Made by a program: the position numbers and the translations under genes
Shown: positions 1,781 to 7,785 of the stretch, piece by piece
Layout of the letters: the number at the start of each line of letters is the position of its first letter
How positions within the stretch are numbered: the stretch's first letter is position 1
The notes under the pieces: generated by a model
Told to the model about the DNA's origin: nothing
What the model saw: only the letters and a program-made list of their open reading frames with translations
Database searches by the model: none
From: Anaerolineae bacterium
GTDB lineage: Bacteria > Chloroflexota > Anaerolineae > J102
Length of the DNA stretch: 34,443 bases
Direction: 5' to 3'
Assembly (NCBI GenBank): GCA_011371305.1
Contig: DRQW01000205.1
Location: 1-34,443, forward strand

Positions 1781-3106
1781 ATGAAAAACACACTGATTAT
1801 CGACCCAGCCATGGGTATGGCTGGGGATATGTTTTCCGCCGCACTTATTGGCCTGGGCGCCCCAGCGGATGCCATCCTGGGCGTCATGACGCGTACGGCC
1901 CGTCTGTTGGGTGAGGCCGAGATCCATGTCGAATGTATTCCCACACCAGAAGGCGATGGATATCGCCTGAAGGTGCATCTGGCCGCTAATGACCACGTGC
2001 TGCCCGAATCACGAGCTCGTAAGCTGCTGGAACAGGCCATTGAAGCAGAAGGATTGGCGAAGCCCTATGCTGAATTTGCCCGTCGTGCGCTGGCCATCCT
2101 TATTGACGCAGAACGGGAGGCGCACAGCAGCGGGCGGCTCGATTTCGGCGCCATGTACGTGCAGGCCATCGGCGTCGCTCATACGCCCTATCATCATACT
2201 CATGAAGAGCATGACCATGCCCACTCCCATCCACATGCTCATTTACATACTCACCACCATCATGACCACCATCATCCGGACGCCCCCTATCAACCAGGGG
2301 TAGATACCGAAGGCGAGTTCTTTATCGAGGTCTTTCCTGAATTCGCGACCGGTCTTGCAGAAATCGACACCTTTTCCCACGTGTTCGTTCTCTCCTGGAT
2401 GCATCACAGCACGGGATATGCTCTGCAGGTGACGCCTCCCTGGCAACAAGGAGAAAAAAAGTGGGTGGGATTGTTCGCCAGCCGTTCGCCCAATCGCCCC
2501 AACCCTATTGGTCTGACCTTAACTGAGGTACGGGGAGTCGAAGGCAATCGGTTGATGACCGGGCCGCTGGATCTGTTCGATGGCACACCTATCATTGACA
2601 TTAAGCCCCATGTGCGATCCCTGGACCAGACCGGGGTAGGAGATGATGGTTGGTTGGCTGAGACCAATCATCTGGAGTTGCACCGAAGGGGCATCCCGCA
2701 CAGTCATGCGGGCGAAGAGGCCATGCTGCACGAGGCTCAAGACATACTGTTGGATGTGATGGGCGCGGCTACGGGGTTGCAGCAGTTAGGCATCGATATG
2801 AGTACGGTGACCTGTCTCATCCCTGTGGCCGTGGGCGGCGGTGTCATCAATTTCAGCCACGGCATCTTGCCCGCACCTGCGCCCGCCACCATAGCTATCC
2901 TCAAGCACCATCGCATCCCCCACGTGGCTGGGCCGGTGGACGTGGAGCTGCTGACGCCGACCGGTGCGGCCATCTTGGCTGCTCTGCATCCCCTTTGGCG
3001 GTGCCGTGAACCTCTGCCAGAGGCTCGTGTTCTGGCACGCGGTATGGGCCTGGGGACGAAAAATTTGCGGCCTCTCAACGCGCTGCGGTTGGCGCTGATG
3101 TCATAA
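1781..3106 (+). CDS. LarC-like (DUF111) protein with an internal TrmO/TsaA tRNA methyltransferase domain and a His-rich loop
   Basis: N-terminus LIIDPAMGMAGDMFSAALIGLG and C-terminal part VGGGVINFSHGILPAPAPATIAILK...VELLTPTGAAILAAL match the LarC N-terminal region; the middle MYVQAIGVAHTPY...APYQPG...GLFASRSPNRPNPIGLTLTEV...DLFDGTPIIDIKPHV matches TrmO. Confidence 0.85.
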   Translation: MKNTLIIDPAMGMAGDMFSAALIGLGAPADAILGVMTRTARLLGEAEIHVECIPTPEGDGYRLKVHLAANDHVLPESRARKLLEQAIEAEGLAKPYAEFARRALAILIDAEREAHSSGRLDFGAMYVQAIGVAHTPYHHTHEEHDHAHSHPHAHLHTHHHHDHHHPDAPYQPGVDTEGEFFIEVFPEFATGLAEIDTFSHVFVLSWMHHSTGYALQVTPPWQQGEKKWVGLFASRSPNRPNPIGLTLTEVRGVEGNRLMTGPLDLFDGTPIIDIKPHVRSLDQTGVGDDGWLAETNHLELHRRGIPHSHAGEEAMLHEAQDILLDVMGAATGLQQLGIDMSTVTCLIPVAVGGGVINFSHGILPAPAPATIAILKHHRIPHVAGPVDVELLTPTGAAILAALHPLWRCREPLPEARVLARGMGLGTKNLRPLNALRLALMS

Positions 3107-6507: not shown

Positions 6508-7785
6508 TCAGTTGGTACGTTGGACCGTGCCCATGGGGAAGCCGTCGGTACGGGTTTCCATGTCTTGGGAGCCGTGGTCGCCCACGTCTTCGATACGTTC
6601 ATCGATGAAAGGCTTCAGGGCAAAGGGAAGGGGGCTGTAATCTGGTTCGGGCTCAATGCTGATGACGGCCGCGTAGCCGGAGGTGAGGTCGATCGGCGGG
6701 TTGATGAAGTCCTGGCCAGGGAAGCTGGGGCCCGGTTTAGGGCCGGCTGTAGGACCGTTGCCATCGCTATCAGCCATGTCACCCGAGGTGAAGCGCCCAG
6801 TAGAAATAGGGCCGTCAGGACCCACGACCCAGCCTTCGTACACCCAGCCCTGAGGAAGATCGGGCAATTTCAGGTTAGGCCACCAAATGCCCTTGCGGTA
6901 ATCTTTCGCTGCCATCTCGCTGGACGGTGCGCCCAGGATGTAAGATACCTGTACTCCGTTGAAATCAACACCCAAGGCCAGGGAATGACTCACGGTTAAG
7001 GTGGCCGTGTCGTCTCTGAAATCGCCACCAAGGATGTGGATTGCGCTGGGAGCAGGGTTCTCGTCGGGATTGGGTTCGATGGTGAGGACGAAAGCGGTAG
7101 CGTTCTTCAGGGCGTGGGCGTCTACCGGGAATTCGGTGGTGCTGGCCATGCCCTTATCATCCACGGTGAATACGCCGGTAGTGACGGGCTTCCCGTTCAC
7201 GATGAGCCAACCTTCATAAGCCCAATCTGGGCCTAAATTCGGAAAATTCGTGAAAGAAAGCGTTAGTGTTCCTTTCATCATGGCGTCCTCAGAATCCATG
7301 CCGCCATCCTTCTTTTCCATGCTTCCGTCGGAACTCATCTCGCCATCTTCCTTTTTCATGGACTCATCCGATGCCATGGCGTCATCCTTTTGTTCCATGG
7401 TGTTATCCGAAGCCATGCTGTCGTCTTCTTTTTCCATGGACGCATCCGAAGTCATGTCGCCATCTTTTTTCTCCATGGATGCCTCCGAGGCCATACTCCC
7501 ATCCTTCTCCATGCTTTCGTTGTCCATGTCTTCCTTTTCTTCGTCATGGCTCATGTCTTGCGCTTTATCCATACTGTCATCGTTGGTCATGGCGTCTTCT
7601 TTCGCCATCGTATCTTCTTTGCCCATCGTGTCATTTTTACTCATGGCATCATCCTTGTCCATGCTATCATCGGACATGGTGGCAGAAACAGATGTGGAGC
7701 TGGGTTCTTGAGACCGAGCACAGGCCGAGATGACGATAGCGGCAGTTAGTAGTACAATAAGGGAAAGTAGCAGTCGTTTTTTCAT
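6508..7785 (-). CDS. Lipoprotein with Met-rich MxKxD-like repeats and two anti-sigma-K-factor-like (EGWL...G.FTV) domains
   Basis: Signal peptide with VISAC lipobox; 23 Met in residues 37-170; paired modules WAYEGWLIVNGKPVTTGVFTVDDKG and WVYEGWVVGPDGPISTGRFTSGD. Confidence 0.75.
   Translation of the reverse strand: MKKRLLLSLIVLLTAAIVISACARSQEPSSTSVSATMSDDSMDKDDAMSKNDTMGKEDTMAKEDAMTNDDSMDKAQDMSHDEEKEDMDNESMEKDGSMASEASMEKKDGDMTSDASMEKEDDSMASDNTMEQKDDAMASDESMKKEDGEMSSDGSMEKKDGGMDSEDAMMKGTLTLSFTNFPNLGPDWAYEGWLIVNGKPVTTGVFTVDDKGMASTTEFPVDAHALKNATAFVLTIEPNPDENPAPSAIHILGGDFRDDTATLTVSHSLALGVDFNGVQVSYILGAPSSEMAAKDYRKGIWWPNLKLPDLPQGWVYEGWVVGPDGPISTGRFTSGDMADSDGNGPTAGPKPGPSFPGQDFINPPIDLTSGYAAVISIEPEPDYSPLPFALKPFIDERIEDVGDHGSQDMETRTDGFPMGTVQRTN
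7276..7677 (-). repeat. Coding tandem repeat of Met-rich units (18-bp hexads, then 5 x 39-bp units)
   Basis: Met at residues 37,42,48,54,60,66,72,78,87,92,98,104,111,117,124,130,137,143,150,156,163,169,170; the 7/6 alternation gives 13-residue units at 7282-7476. Confidence 0.85.

Follow-up and report, generated by a model that had tools for sequence, protein, structure and literature searches.

Why should a TrmO-type methyltransferase domain lie inside a LarC-type protein? The question is raised by a single gene in the window, the 34,443-nucleotide stretch of Anaerolineae contig DRQW01000205.1 analyzed here, which a sequence-only reading had described as one continuous LarC-TrmO-LarC open reading frame (ORF). 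Pfam, NCBIfam, and alignments to solved structures agree with that description. The ORF has no internal stops, and its product reads from the N-terminal part of LarC1 through a complete TrmO_N domain into the C-terminal part of LarC1 (Table 1). The Pfam family Ni_insertion (PF01969; 131.7 bits against a cutoff of 22.1) matches in two stretches that flank PF01980 (TrmO_N; 108.9 bits), which covers its whole profile, positions 1 to 116, at residues 167 to 282. The NCBIfam equivalog cutoffs are exceeded for both TrmO (TIGR00104; 109.9 bits, cutoff 93.25) and LarC1 (TIGR00299; 103 bits, cutoff 90). Residues 167 to 283 align with AF_0241 (2nv4; E value, 2.3e-21), and residues 307 to 439 align with the solved LarC chain 12bi_D (E value, 2.7e-12). 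Only the LarC1 half is represented: the PF01969 match stops near position 234 of 375, and the CTP-binding LarC2 domain is absent from the protein, which ends where LarC2 would be expected to start. The insert spans roughly residues 125 to 309, between AEREAHS and EEAMLHEAQD. Its end was set near residue 309 from the closest standalone TrmO (L013), whose C terminus, HLILHIKGIPHDY, resembles the insert tail HLELHRRGIPHSH as far as GIPH. Elsewhere in the window, the minus strand at 6511 to 7785 encodes a protein with long low-complexity Met/Asp/Ser/Lys-rich repeats (DDSMDKDDAMSK...) followed by a C-terminal part of ordinary composition.

Table 1. Features of the nested gene in the window and of related loci in other genomes
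Feature	Location (strand)	Residues or size	Motifs or content	Basis
Nested LarC1x-TrmO-LarC1x gene	1781..3106 (+)	441 aa		Pfam, NCBIfam, same order in relatives
LarC1 N-terminal part	1781..2152 (+)	1-124	DPAMGMAGDMF; helix 94-117 ends in conserved H115	PF01969 positions 1-108, model
Inserted TrmO with tail	2153..2707 (+)	125-309	Tail HLxLHxxGIPHSH	PF01980, 2nv4 fold match
His-rich loop within TrmO	2192..2275 (+)	138-165	17 His in 28 residues	Sequence, alignment
AdoMet-binding residue span	2291..2605 (+)		Q171-R235-D264-K275	Alignment to AF_0241
LarC1 C-terminal part	2708..3103 (+)	310-441	LHEAQDILLDV, SHGxLPAPAPAT, LLTPTGAA	PF01969 positions 107-234, 12bi_D alignment
Divergent CODH/ACS alpha/beta-like family	L058:11570-13378; L056:3906-4940; L121; L122	About 600 aa		
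LarC1x without TrmO	L061:7971-12031		Co-directional with radical SAM protein and Mo-hydroxylase subunits	
Unfused run	L083:6067-11224; L084:110-5999		LarC1-TrmO-HypB-HypA-LarE-LarB-LarC	

The AlphaFold2 model of the nested protein (29-row alignment; mean pLDDT, 82; pTM, 0.63) leaves domain orientation uncertain; a mixed alignment that included canonical LarC was left out of the modeling, its N-terminal parts being misaligned. Most of the LarC1 blocks exceed a pLDDT of 90, and the TrmO insert is confined to one loop, between helix 94-117 and the strand/helix at 315 to 336. This loop leads from a helix with a terminal conserved His to the HFHE-like strand, so the insertion falls just ahead of a conserved LarC segment, as had been claimed from the sequence. 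The strand carries a mark of the nested clade, which reads LHE-AQD where canonical LarC reads HFHEVGAVD, with two residues fewer after HE. As canonical LarC carries AEARVHGVGIEEVHFHEIGAVD at the insertion site, the methyltransferase stands in for a loop near conserved His, Glu, and Asp residues, presumably the LarC active site. Foldseek matched the TrmO part to 2nv4 (TM score of 0.76 by target length); the PDB fold search that found TrmO returned no match for the LarC1 fold, and the correspondence to solved LarC entries (12bi and others) comes from sequence alignment.

Residues of both partners are conserved across an alignment of 18 distinct nested proteins. Q171, R235, D264, and K275, which correspond to Q22, R82, D111, and K122 of the A. 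fulgidus protein AF_0241, are invariant in all 18, and the equivalent AdoMet contacts in Escherichia coli TrmO are mutationally important (PMC4132733). On the LarC1 side, H115, H317, E318, D321, and D325 are retained in most of these proteins; all five are missing in L056 to L058, three in L055, and two (H317 and D325) in L052. Within the TrmO domain of the window protein, a His-rich loop precedes a conserved APYQP; this loop is restricted to the window's genus and is modeled with a pLDDT below 50 at residues 141 to 168.

The window's assembly is 72% complete and divided into 213 contigs, which would favor an assembly or binning artifact, but the architecture is repeated in so many independently assembled genomes that we give this explanation almost no credence, and a local chimera is ruled out. 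Among 150 relatives, the nested order recurs within the window's genus (G003, G005, G006, and G007; the G004 copy is cut short at the edge of its contig), and members of further families in the class (G034, G050, G082, and G102) have it as well. With further carriers (G167, G238, and G257), the nested architecture is found in 13 of 397 class genomes, counting the truncated G004. When 85,488 species genomes were scanned, it was recovered in Anaerolineae/Chloroflexi records and also in four contigs labeled Latescibacterota, Paceibacterota, Deltaproteobacteria, and Desulfobacterales, phylum labels that need care because these are metagenome bins. Viral contigs yielded no relatives. The segments are thus fused in relatives rather than carried as separate genes, and we found neither a paper describing the architecture nor, in the open-access literature, any link between TrmO and LarC. 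Two known domain families are joined in an arrangement that is conserved, suggestive of function, and apparently undescribed.

Phylogenies of the two partners point to a single insertion of TrmO into LarC1. The nested TrmO domains group in one clade, on one side of a branch with support of 94/93 (97% of bootstraps). The LarC1 parts likewise group together (100/100), distant from canonical LarC1 across a long branch of 2.28; we refer to this lineage as LarC1x. Two LarC1x proteins have no TrmO, and in both of them a His-rich loop fills the insertion site instead: L039, from a member of the window's genus (G002), and L061, labeled Eisenbacteria. Because L039 is nested within the window's genus, TrmO was lost in G002, which kept LarC1x and LarC2, so methylation is dispensable there. 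For L061, either loss or the ancestral state would fit, as the root of the tree is not fixed. Regions encoding identical LarC1x protein sequence occur in G002 (C425) and G139 (C60), which belong to different families; the presence of this G002 stretch in G139 is probably a binning error.

These patterns bear on whether the insertion is neutral, that is, a selfish or accidental event tolerated in a flexible loop with the two domains working independently. Loops that connect secondary-structure elements accept insertions readily, and G002 dropped the insert while keeping LarC1x. However, a single insertion has been retained across families of one class and in contigs labeled as other phyla, LarC1 and TrmO genes are adjacent independently elsewhere (see below), and the insert is under strong purifying selection. 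In each of the three segments, dN/dS was 0.06 to 0.22 across seven pairs; these figures are rough because dS is near saturation. The LarC1 N-terminal part, TrmO, and the LarC1 C-terminal part are all under purifying selection. We consider a neutral insertion very unlikely.

The genomic complement of lar genes suggests what the LarC1 half may be doing. The window's genome (G000) encodes a LarC2-only gene on C202 (NF052512, 154 bits) and adjacent LarE and LarB genes on C75. No full-length LarC was found there, and the nested protein is therefore the sole LarC1 found in this genome. The other nested-gene genomes of the genus (G003 to G007) present the same picture, and in G050 and G082 a LarC2 ORF lies directly upstream, overlapping the start of the nested gene by 29 nucleotides. 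LarC1x-TrmO-LarC1x and the separate LarC2 appear to make up a split LarC. A precedent for such a split is Lactobacillus plantarum LarC, which is also divided over two reading frames, in the adjacent genes lp_0106 and lp_0107, whereas here LarC2 is either distant or upstream of LarC1 with the 29-nucleotide overlap. LarC2 adjoins XdhB/XdhA in G000 and G007; we rejected this as a functional link, as the genes are convergently oriented and no XdhA match lies nearby in G002, G004, and G006.

This complement is not shared by all carriers. LarB, LarE, and LarC2 were not found in the nested-gene genomes G034 (97% complete), G238 (93% complete), G167, G257, and G158; LarE for G238, G257, and G167 was judged from G154, G153, and G151, which hold the same nested contigs and were taken as the same assemblies. 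Conversely, a full LarC or lar set accompanies the nested gene in G102, G155, G156, and G157, and G150 has LarC without LarB or LarE. LarA-type Lar_N proteins are patchy across the genomes examined, and none was found in the 72% complete G000. They are present in G034, G151, and G154, where LarB/LarE were not found, for which incompleteness, cofactor salvage, or a use independent of the nickel-pincer nucleotide (NPN) could account. As some nested-gene genomes have no LarB, LarE, or LarC2 and some nested proteins have lost the LarC motif, part of the family has probably been repurposed.

An association between LarC1 and TrmO also exists without fusion. In another family, sampled by two genomes (G061 and G026), the two genes open a run that continues with HypB, HypA, LarE, LarB, and LarC. 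HypA and HypB are nickel-delivery proteins. All seven genes were identified by family models in G061, where HypA scored 82 bits, slightly below its 88-bit cutoff, and the G026 run is supported through sequence matches, with LarC at C382:6272-7009. The LarC1 of this run has a His-rich C-terminal tail, and in G061 the LarC1 part of the last LarC is weak. On the tree, the TrmO of the run occupies a long branch separate from the nested clade, so two TrmO lineages have acquired, or kept, a link to LarC1. It is not a general adjacency, as no TrmO was found near LarC within the flanks examined in Clostridia lar loci.

The inserted domain had been taken for a tRNA t6A37 methyltransferase, which is not supported as stated: the TrmO segment ends at about residue 309, where LarC resumes, with no C-terminal DPRxxY domain, and the contexts are those of metal-cofactor genes. 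The DPRxxY domain, of the gamma/beta-proteobacterial and mammalian type, is needed for t6A37 methylation in E. coli; archaeal homologues do not have it, and m6t6A was undetected in the archaeal tRNAs analyzed by 2014 (PMC4132733). Because the nested TrmO is the sole TrmO found in G000, G003 to G007, G034, G050, and G082, we retain tRNA methylation as the main functional rival. The TrmO part would then be an ordinary m6t6A37 tRNA methyltransferase functionally unrelated to LarC1x, which would serve as a scaffold or as an RNA- or partner-binding substitute for the missing C-terminal domain. The domain does pass the TIGR00104 cutoff with its AdoMet residues intact, but same-genus genomes G001, G002, and G008 have no TrmO at all, neighbors in other clades are cofactor genes rather than translation genes, and a lar run elsewhere includes a TrmO of another lineage. 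Given also the lack of the domain required in E. coli, this explanation seems unlikely.

The neighborhoods in clades II and III raise another alternative. There, the nested gene runs with MFS transporter, CGGC, methyltransferase, radical SAM, MIP18-like, and metallo-beta-lactamase genes. A divergent acetyl-CoA synthase (ACS) lies downstream in the same run in L056 and L058, a Mo hydroxylase lies near the nested gene in L057 and near LarC1x in L061, and radical SAM genes occur in the runs of L052, L058, and L061. Of 397 class genomes, 3 encode a member of the divergent ACS family (57 to 62% identity, against 39% for the next best), and 2 of these 3 are also carriers of the nested gene. Together with the recurrence of MFS, MIP18-like, CGGC, and methyltransferase neighbors, this would fit an ancestral role in clades II and III as a maturation factor for another metalloenzyme (divergent ACS-like or Mo hydroxylase-like), with any NPN role secondary or absent. 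However, the window's genus, G050, and G082 keep LarB, LarE, and LarC2 without an ACS, neighbors vary between clades, the divergent ACS is missing in G102 and G155, and some contigs may be misbinned. We regard this alternative, too, as having a low probability. A tie between the window's genus and CODH/ACS was rejected, as ACS (CdhC) was not found in that genus. The absence of NPN genes in some carriers and the neighbors in clades II and III indicate that the shared theme is metal-cofactor maturation and not NPN alone.

The best reading, to which we assign a probability of about 0.45, is that the gene encodes part of a split LarC that carries an AdoMet methyltransferase and acts in cofactor maturation. 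The presence of LarC2, LarB, and LarE in the window's own genome, the overlap with LarC2, and the unfused lar/hyp run with its separate TrmO lineage speak for it, as do the invariant AdoMet residues, the low dN/dS of each segment, the well-modeled LarC1 core with its insert in a single loop, the missing DPRxxY domain, and the known fusions of UPF0066 to FmdE. Against it stand the carriers without LarB/LarE/LarC2, the loss of LarC1 motifs, the length of the LarC1x branch, the loss of TrmO in G002, the full LarC of four carriers (G102, G155, G156, and G157), and the passing of the TrmO equivalog cutoff. The earlier suggestion of a new coupling or a repurposed LarC fold is accordingly supported in part, the coupling by the LarC2 overlap and the unfused run and the repurposing by the LarB/LarE/LarC2-less genomes and the motif loss in one clade.

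Under the split-LarC reading, the nested protein would be the LarC1 half, with TrmO inserted once in an active site-proximal loop that is short or His rich in relatives. Its most likely role in the window's genus is in NPN synthesis alongside LarB, LarE, and LarC2, the CTP-dependent half, with which the protein may pair physically. LarC1x would bind a metal or a cofactor precursor, LarC2, where present, would supply the CTP chemistry, and the TrmO barrel would methylate the cofactor, precursor, or partner that LarC1 holds at its site. The His-rich loop could serve to hold or store nickel. In clades without LarB, LarE, and LarC2, the nested protein probably serves another metal-cofactor pathway. 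A more specific version, in which LarC1x-TrmO is a dedicated bifunctional enzyme whose AdoMet-dependent methylation of NPN or a related metal cofactor during assembly yields an undescribed methylated cofactor, is tentative and on balance doubtful; to our knowledge, no methylated NPN is known. The CTP chemistry has a counterpart in Moorella LarC, which cytidinylylates P2TMN (PMC11796402).

Compared with LarC as known, the nickel-pincer cofactor cyclometallase (PF01969, TIGR00299, and NF052512), the nested protein shares the LarC1 motifs and the size and order of both LarC1 parts and, in G000, the accompanying LarC2, LarB, and LarE genes, of which LarB and LarE are missing in carriers such as G034 and G158. 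It differs in having only the LarC1 half, the TrmO insert, the shortened segment after HE, and a long-branched clade. Short TrmO homologues are common in prokaryotes, above all in archaea. With TrmO/YaeB (PF01980 and TIGR00104) of the short archaeal type, such as AF_0241 (2nv4), the insert shares the whole N-terminal domain, the AdoMet residues, and the fold; it differs in being nested in another protein, in having no DPRxxY domain, and, in the window's genus, in its His-rich loop. UPF0066/TrmO joined to a metal-binding domain is already on record as fusions with FmdE, which involve another partner and for which nesting is not described (PMC2954224). The fusion with a nickel insertase and the independent lar/hyp run make it a testable proposal that some short TrmO proteins act on metal cofactors, which, if true, bears on NPN use outside LarA (PMC11796402). 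The arrangement suggests that some TrmO-like enzymes help to build metal cofactors instead of, or besides, modifying tRNA.
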